A stretch of 33,633 nt of DNA from Fibrobacter sp. Lineage in GTDB: Bacteria; Fibrobacterota; Fibrobacteria; Fibrobacterales; Fibrobacteraceae. The DNA lies in NCBI GenBank assembly GCA_012511955.1, contig JAAZFC010000112.1, positions 1 to 33,633 on the forward strand. Direction: 5' to 3'. A model generated the notes under the pieces. The model was not told the DNA's origin and did not search any database. It saw only the letters and a list, made by a program, of their open reading frames with translations. Both the position numbers and the translations under genes were made by a program. Within the stretch, counting starts at the first letter, position 1; each line of letters starts with the position of its first letter. This document shows positions 6,026-33,037 of this stretch, one piece after another.

Positions 6026-7396
6026 GTGAACGGCATGTTTACCGATAGAGTAAAAAAAGTCATGAGTTACGCTCGTGAAGAGTCTATTCGCTTAGGTAAT
6101 GAGTATTTGGGTACGGAGCACCTTTTGTTGGGGTTGGTACGAGAAGGCGAAGGCGTAGCCATAGCTGTGCTTAAAAATTTGGGCGTAGATCTAAAAGAAA
6201 TGTTTAATGAAGTGGAATCTAACATAGCCTCTTCAGATGAAATTACCATAGGAAAGTTGATTCCATTTACCCCCCGCGCCAAAAAGATTTTAGAACTTTC
6301 TGCCCAAGAAGCTCGTATGCTCAAGCATAAATATATAGGCACAGAGCATTTATTGATGGCCATTGTTAAAGATGGTGAGTCCATAGTAAGCAATTTAAAA
6401 ACTCTTAAAGATGTAACTTACGACCAAGTGCGTGAAGAAGTAGAAAAATTATTGAGTACTGTTTCTGAAAGTGGTTTTTCAGGGGGCAGAGAACCAGGGC
6501 GACGAGGCAAACCAGGAGCTGCTTCGAAATCAAAAACACCTTTTCTGGATCATTTTGGAAGAAACTTGAACAACTTGGCTATGGAAGCTAAGCTAGACCC
6601 AATTATTGGCCGTGAAGAAGAAATTGAACGCTTGGTACAAATATTGTGTCGCCGTAAAAAGAATAATCCCGTATTAATTGGCGAACCTGGGGTGGGAAAA
6701 ACCGCCATAGTAGAAGGTTTAGCACAAAAAATCGTAAATAAAGACATACCTGAAATACTAGAGGGTAAGCAGATTGTAGGCCTAGATATGGCTTCTATGG
6801 TGGCTGGAACAAAATATCGCGGGCAATTTGAGGAACGCCTCAAAGCTTTGATGACTGAGTTACAGAAAAATGAAGACATAATCATCTTTATAGATGAATT
6901 GCACACCATCGTAGGAGCTGGTGGCTCCGAAGGTTCCCTCGACGCTTCTAATATTTTTAAACCCGCTCTTTCCCGGGGAGAATTACAAAGCATTGGAGCC
7001 ACTACTTTAGACGAATATCGCAAATATATTGAAAAAGATGGCGCTTTAGAAAGGCGTTTTCAGACCATTTTAGTCAATCCACCTAGTCCCGACGAGACTT
7101 TGGAAATTTTGGTGGGATTAGTGGGGAAATACGAAGAACATCATCATGTTTCATATACTTCAGACGCATTAAAATCAGCGGTTTATTTATCAGAACGCTA
7201 TATTACTGAACGATCTTTGCCAGATAAAGCTATAGATATATTAGACGAAGCTGGTGCTTTGGTGCGCTTAGCTTCCATGGTAATGCCCGATGAATTGCGC
7301 CAAAAAGAAGAAGATTTGACAGATGTGATCGAAAAGAAAGAAGAAGCAGTGTCGGTTCAAGATTTTGAGGGTGCGGCAAAACTTCGCGATCACTAA
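6026..7396 (+). CDS. clpC: ClpC-type AAA+ unfoldase, N-terminal half (ends at in-frame TAA)
   Basis: ClpC unfolds proteins and feeds them to the ClpP protease. This 456-residue part has the double Clp N-domain (TEHLLLGLVREGEGVA and the second copy TEHLLMAIVKDGES), then the first AAA+ module with Walker A GEPGVGKTAIVEG, Walker B IIIFIDELHT and arginine-finger region LERRFQ. It ends with a UVR-like segment (DFEGAAKLRD), which normally leads without a break into the second ATPase module. The frame is cut by TAA at 7394-7396 and resumes in the same frame directly afterwards. GTG 6026 is chosen as start because AGGAG lies 7 nt upstream; the ATG at 6035 would be 16 nt away. If the stop is real, the product is a one-ring ClpC lacking the ClpP-docking module. 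Sequencing error or nonsense mutation are both possible. Confidence 0.85.
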   Translation: MNGMFTDRVKKVMSYAREESIRLGNEYLGTEHLLLGLVREGEGVAIAVLKNLGVDLKEMFNEVESNIASSDEITIGKLIPFTPRAKKILELSAQEARMLKHKYIGTEHLLMAIVKDGESIVSNLKTLKDVTYDQVREEVEKLLSTVSESGFSGGREPGRRGKPGAASKSKTPFLDHFGRNLNNLAMEAKLDPIIGREEEIERLVQILCRRKKNNPVLIGEPGVGKTAIVEGLAQKIVNKDIPEILEGKQIVGLDMASMVAGTKYRGQFEERLKALMTELQKNEDIIIFIDELHTIVGAGGSEGSLDASNIFKPALSRGELQSIGATTLDEYRKYIEKDGALERRFQTILVNPPSPDETLEILVGLVGKYEEHHHVSYTSDALKSAVYLSERYITERSLPDKAIDILDEAGALVRLASMVMPDELRQKEEDLTDVIEKKEEAVSVQDFEGAAKLRDH

Positions 7397-22842: not shown

Positions 22843-23244
22843 ATGAAGTTAATACAGCATACCAAAAAGCGAGTTTTAGTCCCCCTATTGGCGGGGCTAA
22901 TGCTGGTGGCTTTGGTGGGTATGCCGCTGCAGCAGCACTATTGTCACGACCAGGTGGTGGCGACTAGCTTTTATGGAACTGCCGAAGTTTGCGCCCCGGG
23001 GGAAGCTGATTTTAGCTTGGCGTGGCAGGGGGAAATCTGCTGTTACGATCAAAATTCTTGGTTAGCGGGCTGGGAAAGGCAAGCGGTGCAGAGCGAATTA
23101 GCGCTGACATTGGGCGTTATTTCCCCGACATTACCTCAGTTTGCATTGGTGGCTCCTACGCTTATCACAACTTTTGCAACTACAGATGCGCCTAAGCATC
23201 AGGATAGAGATTTACGCATTTTATACCAATCCTTGGTGATTTGA
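22843..23244 (+). CDS. HYC_CC-type small exported protein of heavy-metal loci
   Basis: This 133-residue protein has a basic start and one hydrophobic segment (LVPLLAGLMLVALVGMPL). HYC follows at residues 32-34, then Cys50 and a Cys66-Cys67 pair. This matches the HYC_CC pattern of small proteins found beside heavy-metal efflux genes in Bacteroidota. The cysteines and histidines probably bind copper or silver in the periplasm, but the biochemical role is not established to my knowledge. It is the first gene of the cus-like operon and is transcribed from the promoter immediately upstream. The lipoprotein gene follows after 56 nt. Confidence 0.65.
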   Translation: MKLIQHTKKRVLVPLLAGLMLVALVGMPLQQHYCHDQVVATSFYGTAEVCAPGEADFSLAWQGEICCYDQNSWLAGWERQAVQSELALTLGVISPTLPQFALVAPTLITTFATTDAPKHQDRDLRILYQSLVI

Positions 23245-23300
23245 TACTCGCACTTTTGGCGATTTTAGTACTCATTTCACATTTTATTTAAGGATTTATC

Positions 23301-23618
23301 ATGAAAAAAATATTTTTTGTTTTATTTATCGGTCTTAGCGCCATTTTGGTCGCTTGCGGTTCCAAAGAATCAGCTCAACAAAAAACTCCTGCGTCTGTGG
23401 CCCAAGGAGAAGCTGTGAACAACACTATTTGCCCCGTAACCAATGCTCCCATTGGCTCCATGGGCAAGCCCATTACCGTGGCTTATCAAGGCAAGGTGAT
23501 CAACTTGTGTTGCCAAGGATGCGTGGCGGATTTTAACCGCGAGCCCGAAAAATACATGGCGATTTTACAAGGTCAAAACTCCGCGGAACCCGCTGCGGAT
23601 GAACATTCTCATCACTAG
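23301..23618 (+). CDS. YHS/TRASH-like metal-binding lipoprotein
   Basis: This 105-residue lipoprotein has a signal ending in ILVAC (lipidated Cys19). The mature part carries a metal-binding module: CPVTNAPIG (Cys44), a short strand VAYQGKVINL, then CCQGCVADFNREPEKYM (Cys70, Cys71, Cys74). This is the layout of YHS/TRASH-type domains that bind copper or related soft metals. The C-terminus is His-rich (DEHSHH). Placed before cusC, it may pass Cu(I) or Ag(I) to the efflux system, comparable in role but not in sequence to CusF; that is inference. An AGGA ribosome-binding site lies upstream of the ATG. Stop is TAG, which shows that TAG is a normal stop in this genome. Confidence 0.75.
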   Translation: MKKIFFVLFIGLSAILVACGSKESAQQKTPASVAQGEAVNNTICPVTNAPIGSMGKPITVAYQGKVINLCCQGCVADFNREPEKYMAILQGQNSAEPAADEHSHH

Positions 23619-23635
23619 CATTTAGCGAAGATACA

Positions 23636-24871
23636 ATGCGGTACAAAATGTTTTTGTACTGGGTTTGTGGCGCTATGAGCGCATTAAATGTAGCTGCGGC
23701 AGAGCTGAATCTGTCGCAGTTGGTGGATATTTACACCCAAAATGCGCCGGCGTTGCAGGCTCAGCAGGCTAAAGTGCAAGCGCTAGAGGCGGAGTTAGGC
23801 GGAACAACCACTTGGGCGGCTCCCGATTTAGCTTTTACCCTGGGGCAAAACTCCCAAATTTACGGTGGCATGAGCTTAGGGCAAGAATTTGCCTTGCCGG
23901 GCAAAAGGCAGAGCAAAACTAAGGTGAAAAACGCTGAGATCAAAGGTGCGCAACTAGAGCGCCAAGGGGTGGAACGCCAAGGTCGCAATCAAATTATTGC
24001 GCTGGCGGTGCAGCAATATGCGCTGCAAAATGCGGTGGCGGGGGGAGATTCTACTCTGCGCAACTTGCAGCAGTTGCAAAACTTGTGGCATAATCGCAGC
24101 ACGGCCCAGCCCCAGGTGGCATCGGTGTTGCTTTTACAAAACCAAGTGGCGCAAGTGCGGCGCGAACAGACGGAGTTGCGGGCGCAGTGGTGGGCTTTGT
24201 GGAACCAGATGCAAGCTTTGGTGGGCGCAGATTTAAAACCGGTTTTGTGGCACGCTCCCGATGGAGTCAAGTTGCCCAGTTTAGATGAAATTTTAGCCCA
24301 GGTGAGCGGCAAAAGTGAGTTGCAAGCAGCGCGACAAAATTTGTCAGTCAGTGCGGCGCAGCAAGAGCAGATCACTTGGTCGCAACGGCCGGATTTGCTG
24401 GTGCAGGGCAATTATATGTGGCAAGCTGACGTGCGGGATTGGTCGGTGATGGTGGGCATCAGTTTGCCGTTTGCCCCTTGGGCCAATGGCGAAAATCGCA
24501 GTGCGCGCCAAAGTCTGCAAGCCGAGCGCTTGGCGGCGGAACTCAATCTCAAAAGCCAGGAGCAGTATCTGGTAGCGCAAATTCGCTCCCTGTATGCCCA
24601 AGCGCAAAGTTTAGCGCAACAAATCGCGCTGATTGCTGCAGAGCAGTTGCCCACTTTGCAACAAGCGCGCGCCGCTATAGAGCGGACTTTGCTCGCCGAA
24701 GCTAATCTGACCCAGTGGTTAGAAGTGGAAAGTCAAAGACGCGCTTTGCTGGTGGAGCATATTCAACTCCAAGCCCAATATTGGCAAACCGTGGTGGCCC
24801 TGGCGGAAACGGCGGGTCTCAGTCCTTTAACTTGGTGGCCCGCCTGGACGGGCAGCGAAGGTGAATTATGA
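23636..24871 (+). CDS. cusC: TolC-family outer-membrane factor of a Cus/Czc efflux system
   Basis: The 411-residue protein has a signal peptide (LYWVCGAMSALNVAAA) and two halves with long Gln/Ala-rich amphipathic helices, as in TolC-like channel-tunnels. Examples are LVDIYTQNAPALQAQQAKVQ at the start of the first half and the ANLTQWLEVESQRRALLVEH helix of the second half. The segment GGMSLGQEFALPGKRQSK is typical of CusC/CzcC-family members. It forms the outer-membrane exit duct for the RND pump encoded downstream. Its last codons overlap cusB by 4 nt (ATGA). Codon use is visibly G+C-rich compared with the 5' third of the window, as throughout this operon, suggesting acquisition as a block. 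Confidence 0.85.
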   Translation: MRYKMFLYWVCGAMSALNVAAAELNLSQLVDIYTQNAPALQAQQAKVQALEAELGGTTTWAAPDLAFTLGQNSQIYGGMSLGQEFALPGKRQSKTKVKNAEIKGAQLERQGVERQGRNQIIALAVQQYALQNAVAGGDSTLRNLQQLQNLWHNRSTAQPQVASVLLLQNQVAQVRREQTELRAQWWALWNQMQALVGADLKPVLWHAPDGVKLPSLDEILAQVSGKSELQAARQNLSVSAAQQEQITWSQRPDLLVQGNYMWQADVRDWSVMVGISLPFAPWANGENRSARQSLQAERLAAELNLKSQEQYLVAQIRSLYAQAQSLAQQIALIAAEQLPTLQQARAAIERTLLAEANLTQWLEVESQRRALLVEHIQLQAQYWQTVVALAETAGLSPLTWWPAWTGSEGEL

Positions 24872-26088
24872 AAAAACAAGTTTTTACCATTATTTTAGCC
24901 TTGGGCGTGGGTTTTTTGCTCGCCCTGGCTTATCAACAATGGCAGGGGCATAGCGAAATAGCTGCGGGAAGCAGCACCTATATTTGCCCCATGCACCCGC
25001 AAATTATTAGCAACAAGCCTAGCACTTGTCCGATTTGCGCCATGGATTTGGTCCCGGCCAAAGATCACGACAAGCCCAGCGAGCACGGGGATATTCCCGC
25101 CCATGCGGTGCGAGTGGAATCCGCCATTACCCAGAATATGGGGGTCAAATACCAAGTGGTGGATTCGGCGGAGCTGTCTGGGGAGCTAAAGTTTGCGGGA
25201 GAGCTGCAAATTATCCCTGAAAATCGGGTGGAAATCAATGTGCGCGTAGCGGGTTGGCTCGAAAAAGTCTCAGTGGCGGCGGTGGGTAAGCGGGTTTATC
25301 AAGGGCAAGTTTTGGCTTGGCTCTATAGCCCCGAATTGGAGCAAGCCCAGGGGGATTATCTGCAAGCCAAGGCTTGGGGCGATGCTGCTTTAGCGGGAAA
25401 TTTACAACAGCGCTTGCGCAATTTGGGCATGTCCGAGGCTAGTTTGCAGCAGTTGGATAGCAGTGGGCAAGTGCTGCGCTTGGTGCCTTTGGCGGCGCCA
25501 GTGAGCGGGGTGGTTTTAAGTGCGGCGGCGGTGCCAGGGCAAGCAGTGGCTGCGGGGCACGCGCTCTATACTTTGGCAAATTTGGCGCAACTATGGGTGG
25601 TGGGGCAAGTTTATCCCCAAGATTTGCGCAAAGTCAGTAAAAATGCGAGTTTGCTGGTGTATTTGCCCCATCATGGCAACGAAGCTATAGCTGCGTCTGT
25701 GCAATATGTGGCGCCTTGGGCCGACGAAGTTACCAAAACCACCGAAGTGCGAGCGGTGTTGGCCAATAGAGATTACGCTTTGCAACCGGGGATGTGGGCG
25801 GATTTGCGCCTAAATTACGGGGTGGGTCGGGGCGTGGCAGTGGATAAGCAAGCGGTGTTGCGCACGGGGACGCGGGCGGTGGTGATCAAAGCTTTGGGCG
25901 CTGGTTATTTTGCTCCTACCGATGTGCAATTAGGGGTGGATTTGGGGGATAGTTTGCAGATTACCCAAGGCTTAGCGGTGGGAGATTCCATTGTAACTTC
26001 GGCTCAGTTCGTGTTGGATTCCGAAAGTCATTTAAAAACCGCTATCAGCGCGTTCCAAGGGGGCCAGCATGCTCAAGAGCATCATTGA
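24868..26088 (+). CDS. cusB: Periplasmic adaptor of Cu/Ag efflux, CusB type with N-terminal heavy-metal-binding domain
   Basis: This 406-residue membrane-fusion protein links the inner-membrane RND pump to the outer-membrane channel. An N-terminal signal anchor (TIILALGVGFLLALAYQQW) is followed by a heavy-metal-binding domain, YICPMHPQI...CPICAMDLVP (Cys40, Met42, His43, Cys54, Cys57, Met59), common in CusB homologues of this type. The lipoyl/barrel-sandwich halves are visible as INVRVAGWLEKVSV and PVSGVVLSAAAVPGQAV, separated by a short helical hairpin (LEQAQGDYLQAKAW). Beta-barrel and membrane-proximal domains follow. It overlaps cusC by 4 nt and cusA by 20 nt, so the three subunits are translationally coupled. 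Confidence 0.9.
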   Translation: MKKQVFTIILALGVGFLLALAYQQWQGHSEIAAGSSTYICPMHPQIISNKPSTCPICAMDLVPAKDHDKPSEHGDIPAHAVRVESAITQNMGVKYQVVDSAELSGELKFAGELQIIPENRVEINVRVAGWLEKVSVAAVGKRVYQGQVLAWLYSPELEQAQGDYLQAKAWGDAALAGNLQQRLRNLGMSEASLQQLDSSGQVLRLVPLAAPVSGVVLSAAAVPGQAVAAGHALYTLANLAQLWVVGQVYPQDLRKVSKNASLLVYLPHHGNEAIAASVQYVAPWADEVTKTTEVRAVLANRDYALQPGMWADLRLNYGVGRGVAVDKQAVLRTGTRAVVIKALGAGYFAPTDVQLGVDLGDSLQITQGLAVGDSIVTSAQFVLDSESHLKTAISAFQGGQHAQEHH

Positions 26089-29000
26089 TTGGTCCATTCG
26101 CAACCGCATTATGGTGCTGATTGCAGCGGTGTTTTTGGGAGCGGTGGGTTATTGGGCGGTGGTAAATACTGCGGTGGATGCCATTCCCGATTTAAGCGAT
26201 GTGCAGGTGATTGTTTTTGCAGAAGATCCGGGAAAATCCCCCCGCTTGGTGGAAGATCAGGTAACCTACCCTTTGACCACCACTTTGCTCTCGGTGCCGG
26301 GCTCCAAAACCGTGCGGGGTTACTCCTTTTTTGGCTATTCCCTGGTCTATGTGATCTTCGAAGACGGCACGGATTTGTACTGGGCGCGCAGCCGCGTGCT
26401 CGAAACTCTAAACTCCGCGCAAAAGCGTCTGCCCGCTGGGGTGGTTCCCACCCTCGGCCCCGATGCTACCGGCGTGGGATGGGTGTATCAATATGTGCTA
26501 AAATCCCCCAATCATAGCTTGCAAGAGCTGCGTTCCCTCCAAGATTGGTTTTTGAAATACGAGCTTTCCAGCGTGCCGGGAGTGAGTGAAGTGGCCAGCG
26601 TGGGCGGCTATGTCAAGCAATACCAAGTGGTGGTAAATCCCGATTTGTTGCGCCACTATCAGCTGAGCTTGGCCGAAGTAGAAGAGGCGATTATGCGCGC
26701 CAATGGCGATGAGGGGGGCGAAGCCATTGAGCTGGGCGAAAGCGAATATATGATTCGCGCTTTAGGTTATTTACAAGGTACCGCCGAGATTGGCCAGATT
26801 CCCGTACGGCGCTCCCGAGGCGGTGCGGGGTATAGCACCGTGTATTTGCGCGATGTGGCGCAGATCAATGTGGGGCCCGAAATGCGGCGCGGTCTGGCGG
26901 ATTTAGATGGCGAAGGCGAGGTGGTGGGAGGCATTGTGGTGATGCGCACCGGGGCTAACGCTATGGAGGTGATTAAAGGGGTGAAAAAAAAGCTGGCCAG
27001 TTTGCAGGCTAGTTTGCCCCCTGGGGTAGAAGTGGTGCCGGTTTATGACCGGGCGGATTTGATTAGCCGCGCCATCAAGACCCTTAAAGATAAACTGCTA
27101 GAAGAAATTGTGGCGGTGGGTTTGGTGTGCTTGGTGTTTTTGCTGCATTTGCGTAGCGCTTTGGTGGCGGTGGTGGTGCTACCGCTTTCGGTGATGACCG
27201 CATTTGTGGTGATGCGCTGGCAGGGTTTGAGCGCTAATATTATGTCTTTGGGGGGCATTGCCATCGCCATTGGGGCCATGGTGGATGCGGCGGTGATTAT
27301 GATCGAAAATGCCCATAAGCATTTGGAAGCCGACCAGCAAAAACCGCCCGAACAAAGACGAGAACATTGGGATTTAATCGCTCAATCGGCTCGAGAAGTG
27401 GGGCCTTCGCTGTTTTTCTCCCTGTTGGTGATTACCGTATCCTTTATTCCGGTTTTTACCCTGGGCGACCAAGAGGGGCGTTTGTTTAGCCCTCTGGCTT
27501 TTACCAAAACCTATGCCATGGGCGCGGCCAGCATTTTAGCGGTAACTTTGGTGCCGGTGCTGATGGGTTATTTTGTGCGGGGGCGCATCATCCCCGAACA
27601 TCGCAATCCCATCAATCGCATTTTAGAGAAAATGTATCACCCGGTGATGGATTGGACTTTGCATCATCCCAAAACCGTGTTGGCTGGCGCGGCGGCGATT
27701 TTGCTTTTGACCATTTACCCCTATAGCAAATTGGGTAGCGAATTTATGCCACCCTTGCACGAGGGGGATATTCTCTACATGCCCACCACTTTACCTGGAG
27801 TGGGAGTGAGCCAAGCCAAAGAGCTGTTGCAACAAACCGATAGGCTGATCAAAAGTGTGCCCGAAGTTAAGCAAGTGTTTGGCAAAGCTGGGCGGGCGGA
27901 AAGTCCCACGGATCCGGCGGGTTTGGATATGCTCGAAACCGTGATTCAATTGCATCCCGAATCCCAGTGGCGACCGGGCATGACCTACGAAAAAATCGTG
28001 GCCGAGCTAGATGCCTTGGTACAGATTCCGGGGCTCACAAATTCTTGGACCATGCCCATCAAAACTCGCATTGATATGCTTTCCACCGGCATTAAAACGC
28101 CCTTGGGGCTCAAAATTTCGGGGCCGGATTTAGATACTTTGCAACGCTTGGGTTTAGAATTAGAAAATGTGCTACGCCATATTCCCGGCACAGTGCAAGC
28201 TTTTGCAGAAAGGGCTACCGGGGGCTTTTATTTGGAAATTCACCCCCAGCGAGAAGCCCTGGCGCGCTACGGTTTGGACATTGCGCAAATTCGCAGCACG
28301 GTGCGTTTGGCTCTGGCGGGTATGCCCCTGATTACCCTGGTGGAAGGCTTGGAACGCTACGGTGTGAGCCTGCGTTACCCCCGAGAAATGCGTGACACCC
28401 CCGAAAAAATTGGGAAAATATGGGTGGATTTGCCCGACGGGGGGCATATTCCCTTGGCGCAAGTGGCAGAAATTAAACTCGTGGCGGGGCCCATGACCAT
28501 TCGCAGCGAAGATTCCCGCCCCAACGCTTATGTCTTTGTAGATATAGATCACAGTGATTTGGGCGGCTATGTGCAACAAGCCCAGCCGATTTTAGCGCAA
28601 AAAGTGCAACTGCCCACCGGCTATTCCCTGCATTGGAGCGGGCAATATGAATCCATGGAACGCATGCATCAACGCCTAATGGTGGTGATTCCCCTGACCT
28701 TGTTGATTATCCTTTTGATCATCTATATCAACACCGGGTCATTTGTGAAAACCGGGATCGTATTGCTGGCGGTGCCATTTTCCCTAGTCGGTGCTTTTTG
28801 GTTGCTCTACCTGTTGGATTACCAACTCAGCATGGCTGTATGGGTGGGGATAATCGCCCTGGCAGGGCTAGATGCGGAAACCGGCGTGATCATGTTGCTC
28901 TATTTGGACAAAGCTTATTACGGCGCTCAAAAGAAGGGAAAATTGCGCACCCACGAAGATTTGTACAAAGTCATAGAAGAAGGTGCCGTGCGTCGCGTGC

Positions 29001-29221
29001 GCCCCAAAGTCATGACCGCCACCGTGATCTTAGCCGGCCTCTTGCCCATCTTGTGGAGCAATGGCGCCGGCGCCGATGTCATGAAGCGCATCGCCGCCCC
29101 CATGGTGGGTGGCGTGGTGAGTTCCGTGGCGATGGAGTTGTTGGTTTATCCTCTCATCTACTCCCTATGGCGTTCTTCGGGCTACGCGGGCGCACTGCCG
29201 CGTTGCACTGCGATAAAATAA
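26069..29221 (+). CDS. cusA: CusA-type heavy-metal RND efflux pump (Cu(I)/Ag(I))
   Basis: This 1050-residue inner-membrane proton-driven pump exports Cu(I) and Ag(I) from cytoplasm or periplasm. The start (SIIDWSIRNRIMVLIAAVFL) and the TM4 motif MVDAAVIMIENAHKHLE are typical of the heavy-metal RND class. The Met-bearing segments FMPPLHEGDILYMPT and RIDMLSTGIKTPLG match CusA rather than the divalent-cation pumps CzcA/CncA. Twelve membrane helices are expected, with two large periplasmic loops. The final 16 codons, from Arg at 29171 to the TAA, lie inside palindromic repeat II-a. The terminal SSGYAGALPRCTAIK is therefore repeat-derived and replaces the usual tail. Only this last stretch is odd; all core motifs are intact. 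Confidence 0.92.
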   Translation: MLKSIIDWSIRNRIMVLIAAVFLGAVGYWAVVNTAVDAIPDLSDVQVIVFAEDPGKSPRLVEDQVTYPLTTTLLSVPGSKTVRGYSFFGYSLVYVIFEDGTDLYWARSRVLETLNSAQKRLPAGVVPTLGPDATGVGWVYQYVLKSPNHSLQELRSLQDWFLKYELSSVPGVSEVASVGGYVKQYQVVVNPDLLRHYQLSLAEVEEAIMRANGDEGGEAIELGESEYMIRALGYLQGTAEIGQIPVRRSRGGAGYSTVYLRDVAQINVGPEMRRGLADLDGEGEVVGGIVVMRTGANAMEVIKGVKKKLASLQASLPPGVEVVPVYDRADLISRAIKTLKDKLLEEIVAVGLVCLVFLLHLRSALVAVVVLPLSVMTAFVVMRWQGLSANIMSLGGIAIAIGAMVDAAVIMIENAHKHLEADQQKPPEQRREHWDLIAQSAREVGPSLFFSLLVITVSFIPVFTLGDQEGRLFSPLAFTKTYAMGAASILAVTLVPVLMGYFVRGRIIPEHRNPINRILEKMYHPVMDWTLHHPKTVLAGAAAILLLTIYPYSKLGSEFMPPLHEGDILYMPTTLPGVGVSQAKELLQQTDRLIKSVPEVKQVFGKAGRAESPTDPAGLDMLETVIQLHPESQWRPGMTYEKIVAELDALVQIPGLTNSWTMPIKTRIDMLSTGIKTPLGLKISGPDLDTLQRLGLELENVLRHIPGTVQAFAERATGGFYLEIHPQREALARYGLDIAQIRSTVRLALAGMPLITLVEGLERYGVSLRYPREMRDTPEKIGKIWVDLPDGGHIPLAQVAEIKLVAGPMTIRSEDSRPNAYVFVDIDHSDLGGYVQQAQPILAQKVQLPTGYSLHWSGQYESMERMHQRLMVVIPLTLLIILLIIYINTGSFVKTGIVLLAVPFSLVGAFWLLYLLDYQLSMAVWVGIIALAGLDAETGVIMLLYLDKAYYGAQKKGKLRTHEDLYKVIEEGAVRRVRPKVMTATVILAGLLPILWSNGAGADVMKRIAAPMVGGVVSSVAMELLVYPLIYSLWRSSGYAGALPRCTAIK

Positions 29222-29298
29222 CACTCGAAATACTATGTGTATTACTCGTGTTATTTTTCTTGTGCGCCTTGCATTGCATCCCGCGTAGCCCGAAGAAC
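29172..29298. repeat. Palindromic repeat unit II-a (127 bp) overlapping the cusA 3' end
   Basis: The outer arms are perfect over 19 nt (29172-29190 with 29280-29298). Inside, GGCGCAC (29189-29195) pairs with GTGCGCC (29262-29268), AAAATAACAC (29215-29224) pairs with GTGTTATTTT (29248-29257), and AATAC pairs with GTATT at the tip. It supplies the last 16 codons and the stop of cusA. Confidence 0.9.
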
Positions 29299-29434
29299 TA
29301 TTCTCGGAGGTGGCGAGCTCCGCAGGCGCTATGCTTCGTCTGAATTCGGTAAAATAACGCTCGAAATACTATGTGTATTACTCGCGTTATTTTTCTTGTG
29401 CGCCTCGCCTAGCATCCCGCTCGCTCCGAAGAAC
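29299..29434. repeat. Palindromic repeat unit II-b (136-bp period)
   Basis: It starts ATTCTCGGAGGTGGCG and repeats at 29436, 136 bp later. The central stem AAAATAACGC (29351-29360) pairs with GCGTTATTTT (29384-29393). Compared with II-a, the A-T pair at stem position 9 is replaced by G-C on both sides, a compensatory change. The right side shares TTATTTTTCTTGTGCGCCTC and a TAGCATC motif with units I-a, I-b and II-a in varying combination. Confidence 0.85.
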
Positions 29435-29604
29435 TATTCTCGGAGGTGGCGGGCTCCGCGGGCGCTATGCTTCGTCAGGCTGCAGTATCTCCGAACTTAG
29501 TTTAAAAGCTCTTAGCCGATTCGCGTCAGCTAATCGGCAGAGAGTTCGGAAGTCATTAATACACAGGTTAAGCCATGGTTGAGACTTGTGTATTCCTCAC
29601 CGTT
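29435..29604. repeat. Palindromic repeat unit II-c carrying the 67-nt module
   Basis: It begins with the same about 40-nt left end as II-b, ending GGCGCTATGCTTCGTC. It continues into the 67-nt module (29488-29554), then AATACACA (29558-29565) pairing with TGTGTATT (29585-29592), followed by CCTCA. It lacks the TTATTTTTCTTGTGCGCC right half found in the other units, so its right side is either lost or replaced by the hairpins at 29609-29694. Confidence 0.7.
29488..29554. repeat. Conserved 67-nt structured module, copy 2
   Basis: Identical to 11486-11552 except for two loop bases (GCGTCAGC here, GCATTAGC there). The stems TCCGAACT/AGTTCGGA, CTCT/AGAG and GCCGATT/AATCGGC are unchanged. The copies are 18 kb apart and each sits in a repeat cluster. 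Confidence 0.8.
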
Positions 29605-29608
29605 TTTT

Positions 29609-29694
29609 GACACTGAACATCGTGTTCAGTGCCCTTCGGGCTCCCTTTGTGAGTCCTTCTCCGAGAAAAATCTGTTCAAGCCGATTTTTCTCGG
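29609..29694. repeat. Series of perfect hairpins before the restriction-gene remnant
   Basis: Three stems follow one another: CACTGAAC/GTTCAGTG (29609-29616 with 29622-29629), GCCC/GGGC (29629-29632 with 29636-29639), and a 12-bp perfect stem CCGAGAAAAATC/GATTTTTCTCGG (29661-29672 with 29683-29694). There is no convincing gene between 29222 and 29719; open frames here are formed by the repeats. The last stem ends 25 nt before ATG 29720. Confidence 0.75.
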
Positions 29695-29719
29695 AAGTGC
29701 AACGATTTTAGGAGTAACC

Positions 29720-30109
29720 ATGCTTTCGCGTTTACGAGGTTTTGCACGCACCATACCTTCTTTTTTAATGGCCTATGGCAACAGTGAAACCCAGCTGGAA
29801 AACTTTGATAAACACATTACCGACCATGTTTTTAAAGATGTAACCGGCATCAATTTAGAACAGTTTAGGGCTTTGCGTGATAAGCACAAGTTTTTTGATA
29901 GCGCGGTGTTTGATCATTCGGTGCAGGAGTTTTTAAACAAAAAAGAACAGCTAGCTAACTATTTTGACCCTGAGCAAAGCGAAGATATCTTTGATTATAT
30001 ACCGCCGCAAAAAACTAACCAAATATTTACCCCTAGATGGGTTGTATTTAACAGAAATAACCAAACGCTTGTATGTGGGTTTAAAAAACCAAATACCCCA
30101 AGACAGTGA
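29720..30109 (+). pseudogene. Remnant of helicase-methylase restriction enzyme, first fragment
   Basis: The ATG has GGAG 5 nt upstream, yet the protein begins in what looks like the middle of a much larger family. LRGFARTIPSFLMAYG and DIFDYIPPQKTNQIFTPRWV are the junction between the helicase part and the Eco57I-type N6-adenine methylase part of fused restriction-modification enzymes (recalled, not searched). The entire helicase/nuclease part is missing upstream, where repeats now lie. After IFTPRWVV the frame leaves the family sequence, and the homologous sequence resumes in another frame at about 30036. The remaining codons to 30109 are out-of-frame tail. This is most simply a decaying gene. 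Confidence 0.7.
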
Positions 30110-31280
30110 ACGCCTAAAGCATATATTAGAAAAGCAATTATATGGATTTGCACCCAGCGAGATTATTTATGCCATTGCCAAAAGTTTTATTTATGGTCAG
30201 TTTGCTGAAATTAACCCCGCAAATTTGCAATGCCGCGATTTAACCGAACTTGCCAAGGAAAATGGAGATTTAGAGATGAAATTTGATGTAGTAGTGGGCA
30301 ATCCGCCGTACCAGGAGGAATCTGTAGGTGATAATAATAGCGACAATTCAATTTACTATCATTTTTATGAATTAGCAGAAAGAGCGGCTGATAAATATTG
30401 CTTAATTTCTCCTGCAAGATTTTTATTTAATGCAGGGAAAACTCCAAAAAATTGGAATGAAAAGATGCTAAACGACAAGCATATTAAAGTTGTACATTAT
30501 GAGCAAAACTCATCTAAAATTTTTCCTACGACTGATATTAAAGGAGGAGTTGCCGTACTTTATCGTGATGATATTGTTGAGTTCGAAAAAATAGGAGTAT
30601 TTACTACTTTAGAAGAATTAAATTTAATTGCAAATAAAGTTGCGAGGCAAACTATTGATACGCTTGACTCTATCGTTTCAAATCGTGGCCAATATAGATA
30701 TTCAAAACTGATGTACAATGAACATCCAAAAGAAATGATAAAGACATCTGATCCAAGAATAGCACCGAGCGCTTTTTCAAGGTTTCCTACATTTTTCACA
30801 GATGAAAAGCCAGATGATAATAGTGAATATGTGCAAATATATGGCAGAATAGAAAATGATAGGGGTTATAAATGGTTTAAAAGGGATTATTTGTCAGCTC
30901 CGTCCGGCTTTGATAAATTTAAGGTTATTATTCCTAACGCTAATGGTTCAGGAGCCATTGGAGAAGTTTTAAGCACACCCCTCGTCGGGTTTGCTGAAAC
31001 CTTTATCAGCATTGGCGCTTTTGATACACAAATAGAAGCTGAAAATTGCCTTAAGTATGTTAAATCAAAATTTGCACGCACCATGCTTGGGATTCTTAAA
31101 GTAACCCAACATAATCCAAGAGAAAAATGGGTGTATGTCCCCCTTCAGGACTTTAGTCCCCAAAGCGATATAGACTGGTCCCAAACTAGTGCAGAAATTG
31201 ATGCTCAACTTTATGCTAAATATGGTCTAAGTCCAGCGGAAATTGACTTTATCGAAGAAAAAGTCAGAGCTATGGATTAA
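30036..31280 (+). pseudogene. Remnant of Eco57I-type N6-adenine methylase, second fragment
   Basis: The frame, open from 29964, becomes family-like at DGLYLTEITKRLY (from 30036). It continues through HILEKQLYGFAPSEIIYAIA and the catalytic methylase motif IV NPPY (VVVGNPPYQEE) to a C-terminal DNA-recognition-like region ending WSQTSAEIDAQLYAKYGLSP in the family manner. Relative to intact relatives as I remember them, about 30-40 residues between PRWVV and GLYLTEI are missing, including the SAM-binding motif I region, and the frame changes there. The deletion and shift should abolish activity. A TTG or ATG inside could still start a 400-residue protein, but it would lack motif I. The body is more A+T-rich than the copper operon. 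Confidence 0.75.
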
Positions 31281-31324: not shown

Positions 31325-31398
31325 TCATACGAAATTACAATAATTTAGCTCACTTCTACTGATAATCAAATATGAATGACAAAAACCTCTATCGCATT

Positions 31399-31430
31399 AT
31401 TGCAATATAGCAATGCAGTTGTTATCTTTG
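31399..31430 (+). promoter_or_regulatory. ars promoter with overlapping ArsR-type operator
   Basis: TTG (31400-31402), a 20-nt spacer and TATCTTTG (31423-31430) form an exact Bacteroidetes-type promoter; the ATG at 31435 follows after 4 nt. An inverted repeat ATTGC-AATATA-GCAAT (31399-31414) overlaps the -33 box and has the look of an ArsR/SmtB operator. This suggests the encoded ArsR domain represses its own gene until arsenite binds. Confidence 0.7.
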
Positions 31431-31434
31431 CGAT

Positions 31435-32580
31435 ATGAAAAAAGTTGCTTATACCGAAACCCAAATGCGCTTGGCGCAAGTGCTAAAAGCCCTGGGACAC
31501 CCTGCCCGGGTAGCTATTATGGATCATTTGCTCAAAGTCAACGCTTGTATTTGCGGAGATATTGTCAATGAGTTGCCCTTGGCGCAGCCCACCGTTTCCC
31601 AGCATTTAAAAGAACTCAAAAATGCGGGCCTAATTCAGGGGAGCATCGAGGGAAACACCATCTGCTATTGCATAGATCCCCAAGACGTGGCGGAGTTACG
31701 CGATTATTTGCAAAACATGGTGGAAACTTTGAACCCAGAGCCAGAAAAAAGCTGTGGAAATAAGGGAAATATAGCTGCCAATTTTGCCATTAAAGAAATG
31801 GTCAAGGCTAAATACAGCTTAATCGCCGCCCAGAGCCCAGCCTCGCAAAATAGTTGCTGTGCTCAGGATAGCTCTCCGCAAAAAATCTATCATATTATGA
31901 CCGATGAATACAATAATTTGGCCGGTTATAACCCTGCGGCAGATTTGCAATTAGGTTGCGGGTTGCCCACTAAGTTTGCGCGCATCAACCCAGGCGATGT
32001 GGTGGTGGATCTGGGTAGCGGCGCGGGCAATGATTGCTTTGTGGCCCGCCATGAAACCGGGGTCAAGGGCAAGGTTATTGGCATAGATTTCAGCGCGGCC
32101 ATGGTGCAAAAAGCTCGACAAAATGCGCAGCAAAAGAATTTTGACAATGTGGAGTTTATCGTGGGCGATATAGAAGACATTCCTTTGCCCAAGGCCACCG
32201 CCCAAGTGGTGGTTAGTAATTGTGTGATGAACTTGGTGCCAGACAAAGTCCAAGCTTTTCGCGAAGTGTTTCGCATTTTAAAACCCGGAGGGCATTTTAG
32301 CATTTCGGACATTGTGCTCACGGGGGATTTGCCTGCCAAAATCAAAAATGCTGCGGAAATGTACGCCGGTTGCGTGGCCAGCGCCATTTTGCAAAGCGAC
32401 TACTTAGAAATAATTAAGCAAGCGGGATTCAGCAACTTAACCATTCAAAAAAACAAACCGATTATTGTCCCCGAACATATTTTAAAAGATTACTTGAACC
32501 CTGATGAAATTGCTGCGTATAGCTCCCGGGAAACGGTAATTCGCAGTTTGAGCATCTATGCGGAAAAACCGCGGGATTGA
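31435..32580 (+). CDS. ArsR repressor fused to ArsM arsenite S-adenosylmethionine methyltransferase
   Basis: This 381-residue fusion has residues 1-95 as an ArsR/SmtB winged helix: ACICGDIVNELPLAQPTVSQ contains a CxC pair (Cys38, Cys40) on the recognition-adjacent helix, like the CVC of classical ArsR, though the third Cys is not conserved. Residues about 120-381 are an ArsM-type methyltransferase: MVKAKYSLIA with Cys141-Cys142, GYNPAADLQLGCGLPT (Cys175), SAM motif I VVDLGSGAGND, SNCVMNLVPDK (Cys263) and MYAGCVAS (Cys313). The family converts As(III) to methylated, often volatile, forms. One protein would thus sense arsenite and detoxify it. It is probably autoregulated through the overlapping operator. 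An arsC gene follows 49 nt downstream. Confidence 0.92.
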   Translation: MKKVAYTETQMRLAQVLKALGHPARVAIMDHLLKVNACICGDIVNELPLAQPTVSQHLKELKNAGLIQGSIEGNTICYCIDPQDVAELRDYLQNMVETLNPEPEKSCGNKGNIAANFAIKEMVKAKYSLIAAQSPASQNSCCAQDSSPQKIYHIMTDEYNNLAGYNPAADLQLGCGLPTKFARINPGDVVVDLGSGAGNDCFVARHETGVKGKVIGIDFSAAMVQKARQNAQQKNFDNVEFIVGDIEDIPLPKATAQVVVSNCVMNLVPDKVQAFREVFRILKPGGHFSISDIVLTGDLPAKIKNAAEMYAGCVASAILQSDYLEIIKQAGFSNLTIQKNKPIIVPEHILKDYLNPDEIAAYSSRETVIRSLSIYAEKPRD

Positions 32581-32629: not shown

Positions 32630-33037
32630 ATGAAAAGTAAAATTTTAGTCTTATGTACTGGTAACTCTTGCCGCAGTCAAATCGCTGAAGCTTATTTACG
32701 CCATTTTGCCGGCACGCACGCCGATGTTTATAGTGCTGGGGTGGAAACTCATGGTTTAAACCCCAACGCGGTGGCCACCATGGCGGCTGATGGCATCGAT
32801 ATTTCCCATCACACCTCTAATCACATTGATGAATATGACCATATCAAATTTGATTTAGTGCTCACCGTTTGCGATCACGCCTAGGAGCGCTGCCCGGTGT
32901 TTAGCAATGCCACCCGCAAATTGCATCACAATTTCCCCGACCCGGCCAAAGCCCAGGGTAGTCCCGCACAAATTGCCCAAGAATTTGCCCAAGTGCGCGA
33001 GCAAATCAAAGACTATTGTCGCAACTTGGTGGTTTAG
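32630..33037 (+). pseudogene. arsC: Arsenate reductase (thioredoxin-coupled ArsC) interrupted by in-frame TAG
   Basis: ArsC reduces arsenate to arsenite, using three cysteines. The N-terminal phosphatase-like loop CTGNSCRS (Cys9) is intact, as is SAGVETHGLNPNAV. The second redox Cys is at 81 (TVCDHA). Codon 85 is TAG (32882-32884). The frame then continues unbroken with ERCPVFSNATRK, bringing the third Cys at 88, and FPDPAKAQGSPAQ, ending at TAG 33035-33037 for a normal length of about 135 codons. The truncated product lacks the third catalytic Cys and the C-terminal helix, so it should be inactive. One base change from CAG, AAG or GAG explains the stop. Sequencing error is the alternative. 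Confidence 0.9.

Follow-up and report, generated by a model that had tools for sequence, protein, structure and literature searches.

A probable ArsR-ArsM fusion in an arsenic-resistance locus of a Fibrobacter genome

Results

An ArsR arsenic repressor and an ArsM arsenite methyltransferase are joined in one open reading frame at 31435-32580 (forward strand), and this fusion is probably genuine; its translation as a single chain, DNA binding, inducibility, and catalysis are inferred from sequence. The window analyzed here (33,633 nucleotides) is the whole of one contig of a 2.68-Mb, 150-contig genome (MAG). The frame extends from ATG at 31435 to TGA at 32580 (381 codons), and no in-frame ATG, GTG, or TTG was found upstream of this ATG. 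Residues 13-88 match the ArsR/SmtB winged helix (HTH_metalloreg) above the curated NCBI cut-off; the ArsR half passes NF033788 (72.9 bits, cut-off 55) and PF01022 (42, cut-off 22). Residues 118-380 are a complete arsenite methyltransferase (NF008823, 327 bits, cut-off 263), and Pfam concurs in placing HTH_5 and methyltransferase domains in the protein. The preliminary description of this DNA had reported one uninterrupted 381-codon ArsR-ArsM frame, and the frame coordinates and both profile matches bear this out.

On the forward strand, the ArsR half (residues 1-106) occupies 31435-31752, the linker (residues 107-118) 31753-31788, and the ArsM half (residues 119-381) 31789-32577. Cysteines are found at positions 38, 40, 77, 79, 107, 141, 142, 175, 201, 263, and 313. 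In the ArsM alignment, C175, C263, and C313 are equivalent to C72, C174, and C224 of CmArsM, and all three are invariant. The SAM motif DLGSGAGND is at residues 192-200, so that the earlier claim of a complete ArsM with its Cys residues and SAM motif stands with the NF008823 match. The AlphaFold2 model is confident for the methyltransferase core and moderately confident for the winged helix, with low pLDDT in the linker region (residues 95-114). The closest solved structures to the model are CrArsM, human AS3MT, and other ArsM proteins.

Response of Arsenicibacter rosenii ArsR to As(III) requires Cys41, Cys80, and Cys82, while response to MAs(III) requires Cys41 and Cys82; Cys43 and a C-terminal Cys-Cys pair are dispensable (PMC11868830). 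The equivalents of Cys41, Cys80, and Cys82 in the fusion are C38, C77, and C79, which are invariant in 37 aligned ArsR rows, whereas C40 varies. These counts come from the ArsR columns of a mixed ArsR/ArsM alignment, and only those columns were used from it. By analogy with the A. rosenii mutants and from this conservation, the predicted sensing site is most likely C38, C77, and C79, and probably not the CxC pair proposed earlier.

The junction carries traces of two separate genes. In relatives, arsR ends in Cys-Cys-stop (TGY TGY TAA, with TGA in one), and the arsM ATG sits exactly six codons before an I/L-K-E motif. In the fusion, the junction reads TGT GGA AAT AAG GGA AAT ATA GCT GCC AAT TTT GCC ATT AAA GAA ATG. 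The Cys-Cys-stop is absent, with Cys-Gly (TGT GGA) in its place, and ATA (31771-31773, forward strand) is found at the ancestral ATG position, six codons before IKEM. The lost Cys-Cys is the pair that is dispensable in A. rosenii ArsR. Were the two halves translated together as a single chain, loss of both stop and start would be expected.

A fused frame could also result from a sequencing or assembly error, or from a lesion in a decaying operon, with genes that are separate or dead in the cell. In-frame stops are present in two other genes of the same contig, arsC (TAG) and the housekeeping gene clpC (TAA), so base-level errors or true lesions do exist on it, and an upstream restriction-methylase fragment appears frameshifted. 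In addition, a single substitution would turn the GGA that follows the first TGT into TGA, and the exact junction is known from one MAG, with no second genome carrying it found. A single error, however, would not account for both the lost stop and the change of ATG to ATA at the exact start position. The 381 codons also contain no stop even though the nearest ArsM differs from the ArsM half in approximately 32% of residues; had the ArsM half drifted neutrally to its present divergence, approximately four stops would be expected in it, and none is observed (P(0) 0.02), which makes neutral drift unlikely. With comparable fusions present in other genomes (see below), we consider error or decay an unlikely explanation of the fused frame.

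Elsewhere on the contig, clpC is split by a TAA at 7394-7396 where the nearest relative has CAA, and the gene is intact as one frame of 827-851 codons in 14 of 14 sampled family members; this TAA is either an assembly base error or a real lesion. The methylase remnant (Eco57I type, 29579-31280) has its apparent frameshift near 30000-30100. Between it and an upstream heavy-metal efflux operon, 29200-29500 holds two near-identical copies in direct repeat, the forward frame of which reads ...LEILCVLL.LFFLCA...PKNYSRRWRAP.ALCFV.

A frame fused in DNA might still give rise to free ArsM by internal initiation, leaving the cell with both forms. The sole nearby candidate start is the ATG of Met122 (31798-31800, forward strand), just before the conserved ArsM core, where initiation would drop only about nine residues; fusions in other genomes also keep the ancestral arsM ATG in frame. 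Met122, however, is an internal Met conserved in most relatives, including unfused ones, so finding it here does not point to a start, and we think a mixture of fused and free ArsM quite improbable.

Origin of the locus was examined by comparison with relatives. The contig backbone fits the host family, as full-length lysS is 69-75% identical across that family. The best matches to both halves, in contrast, are separate, adjacent arsR and arsM genes of Bacteroidota (60-68% identical), while same-family ArsM proteins are only 53-59% identical to the ArsM half, making the gene atypical of its host group. In the ArsM tree, the fusion has a long branch (0.72 compared to 0.06 for its sister) and falls within a Bacteroidota set of 15 rows, and in the ArsR tree it groups with loci L035 and L036. 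Separate Bacteroidota pairs (e.g., L035, L036, and L045) resemble the fusion locus in gene order and operator at this 60-68% identity, but they retain a stop codon between the genes, which in L035 and L036 is in frame with arsM. That these closest relatives keep two adjacent genes agrees with the earlier statement that ArsR and ArsM are normally separate. On sequence grounds, the locus is an arsRMC-type operon with its first two genes fused.

The preliminary description had proposed a search for the same architecture, and four other stop-free ArsR-ArsM frames were found, all in Bacteroidia, among approximately 60 genomes of that class with both halves in tandem. No other full single-frame ArsR-ArsM was found among 168 genomes of the host phylum (G046 was checked individually). 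The four frames are from G349 and a trio (G809, G779, and G880) in Chitinophagales, the order of L035, and all pass both the ArsR and ArsM models. Their junctions differ from that in the window, and the trio differs from G349; both the trio and G349 retain the ancestral arsM ATG inside the fused frame. The trio forms one clade with dN/dS of approximately 0.09 across both halves (dS 0.2-0.6, dN 0.02-0.05), a ratio indicating purifying selection on both halves. Three changes are required to explain the fusions on the joined ArsR and ArsM tree, where a single fusion clade is marginally rejected (AU p 0.047); it is not rejected in the ArsM-only tree (AU p 0.20), and the ArsR-only tree does not settle the number of origins. 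As read from these genomes, the fusion architecture is real and recurrent, and several independent origins are likely.

Some other candidates were rejected. Plasmid tblastn hits in Nonomuraea (L069), Cupriavidus (L070), and haloarchaea (L072 and L073) turned out to be two genes, separate or overlapping, or an ArsM without ArsR, and the 368-aa open frame of L006 contains only ArsM (276 aa). A scan of viral contigs found nothing. Five loci from other families of the host phylum (L022, L023, L024, L026, and L028) have an ArsM-like methyltransferase domain within open frames of approximately 1000 residues.

Upstream of the fusion is a putative operator, ATCGCATTATTGCAAT (31391-31406, forward strand), in the register conserved among relatives. 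Nearly all of 25 relatives carry its consensus, ATCGTAATATTGCAAT, or a near copy ahead of arsR, and the site agrees with the A. rosenii ArsR footprint TTTTATCGTAATATTGCGATCACAATC (PMC11868830). Sites matching the consensus at 15 or more of 16 positions are expected by chance approximately 0.03 times per window. The palindrome ATTGCAATATAGCAAT (ATTGC-N6-GCAAT; 31399-31414, forward strand), named as the operator earlier, is present, and the autoregulatory anatomy read from it holds, but the conserved register lies one 8-bp half-site upstream. The two sites overlap by that half-site, and the palindrome is possibly a second dimer site.

A Bacteroidota-type -7 box (TAnnTTTG), TATCTTTG, was identified by sequence match at 31423-31430 (forward strand); the same octamer is found upstream of Spirosoma oryzicola arsR. 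A candidate -33 TTG element (31400-31402, forward strand) lies within the operator, 20 nt from the -7 box. We take this TTG and TATCTTTG to be the -33/-7 promoter, on the assumption that it is of the Bacteroidota type. The fusion locus thus has a TATCGTAATATTGCGAT-like operator overlapping its upstream promoter element, and because the operator covers the TTG, binding would block the promoter. Only two other one-mismatch operator sites occur in the 2.68-Mb genome, which is about chance level, so the fusion protein most likely would control only its own operon.

Downstream is arsC, a thioredoxin-type arsenate reductase gene identified by profile match (32630-33037, forward strand). An in-frame TAG (32882-32884) interrupts the gene after the second catalytic Cys and before the third, which is thereby cut off; in approximately 30 related loci, this position is Lys, Arg, or Asn. 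TAG recoding was ruled out because TAG, TAA, and TGA all terminate normal genes in the window. ArsB was not found in the host genome, and the single SBF-family transporter scores 86 against the ACR3 cut-off of 282.8. On gene content as read, with ArsB and ACR3 searched, the main response to arsenite may be methylation. Upstream of the ars genes is a cusCBA-like heavy-metal efflux operon (22843-29221) that encodes an HYC_CC_PP protein, an outer-membrane channel, a CusB-like adaptor, and a CusA/CzcA pump. Its GC content (53%) is above the rest of the window, and it is a possible metal-resistance island.

Discussion

The fusion is real, but it departs only modestly from an arsenic-resistance operon that is already known. 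It would have arisen when the arsR stop codon was lost from a Bacteroidota-type arsR-arsM-arsC operon that is now in the host genome. In the absence of arsenic, a dimer of the ArsR half would occupy the operator over the -33 region and repress its own gene and arsC. Binding of As(III) at C38, C77, and C79 would release it, and the same polypeptide would then accumulate and methylate As(III) using SAM. Because repressor and enzyme would be made 1:1, the circuit would close again as trivalent arsenicals drop. It had been suggested that methylation itself resets DNA binding. This is doubtful: ArsR proteins like that of A. rosenii respond to the first product, MAs(III), as well as to As(III), so the first methylation step alone should not restore repression.

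Through fusion, a regulator and an enzyme encoded by two genes of an operon become one protein, which is a candidate one-gene arsenic sensor-methylator. Both unfused close relatives and other fusions are available for comparison. These provide a natural test of whether coupling a metalloregulator to a detoxifying enzyme alters sensitivity or response. One speculative idea, which we hold with little confidence, is that fusions arose repeatedly and were kept for tethering, with As(III) passed from sensor to enzyme or catalysis at the promoter, as a single-protein sensor-effector with feedback.

The fusion locus shares with the arsRMC operon of A. rosenii SM-1 its gene order, ArsR Cys type, operator over the upstream promoter element, and downstream arsC (PMC11868830). 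In SM-1, however, arsR and arsM are two genes, and arsC is described as functional within the operon (PMC11868830), whereas the three-gene arsRMC plan is altered here, with arsR and arsM in one frame and arsC interrupted by TAG.

In the literature searched, we found no description of a canonical ArsM joined to ArsR. One fusion of ArsR to a methyltransferase is already known from published work, with another methyltransferase and context: ArsRM of Brevundimonas sp. M20 (320 aa) binds its own promoter and is reported to methylate As(III) (PMC10190100). It resembles the present fusion in joining an ArsR domain to a SAM methyltransferase, in that order, and the host genome itself has a second ArsR-methyltransferase fusion of this general type (L002:1045-1974; 310 aa), which is UbiE-like and not ArsM (NF008823 score of only 64 compared to the cut-off of 263). 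The present fusion might therefore be a regulator of methionine genes of the Brevundimonas type, but its methyltransferase half is a true ArsM with the expected Cys residues (327 bits), and its neighbor is arsC rather than met genes. The arsenic site of the Brevundimonas protein, by contrast, is described as Gln/Tyr instead of Cys, and the gene is in a metF/metH operon (PMC10190100). A methionine-regulating role is thus highly improbable, and we infer, comparing by description, that the methyltransferase half of Brevundimonas ArsRM comes from another lineage.

In Thermus thermophilus, TtSmtB and TtArsM are separate proteins that form a physical complex with one another and with the promoter (PMC8649762). 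An ArsR/SmtB repressor touching an arsenite methyltransferase at a promoter resembles the fused pair, although the Thermus system consists of two proteins, its ArsM has an unusual active site, and stability of the complex drops with arsenic concentration (PMC8649762). The Thermus complex shows that partners of this kind can work in contact, and it is a functional precedent for joining a repressor and ArsM.
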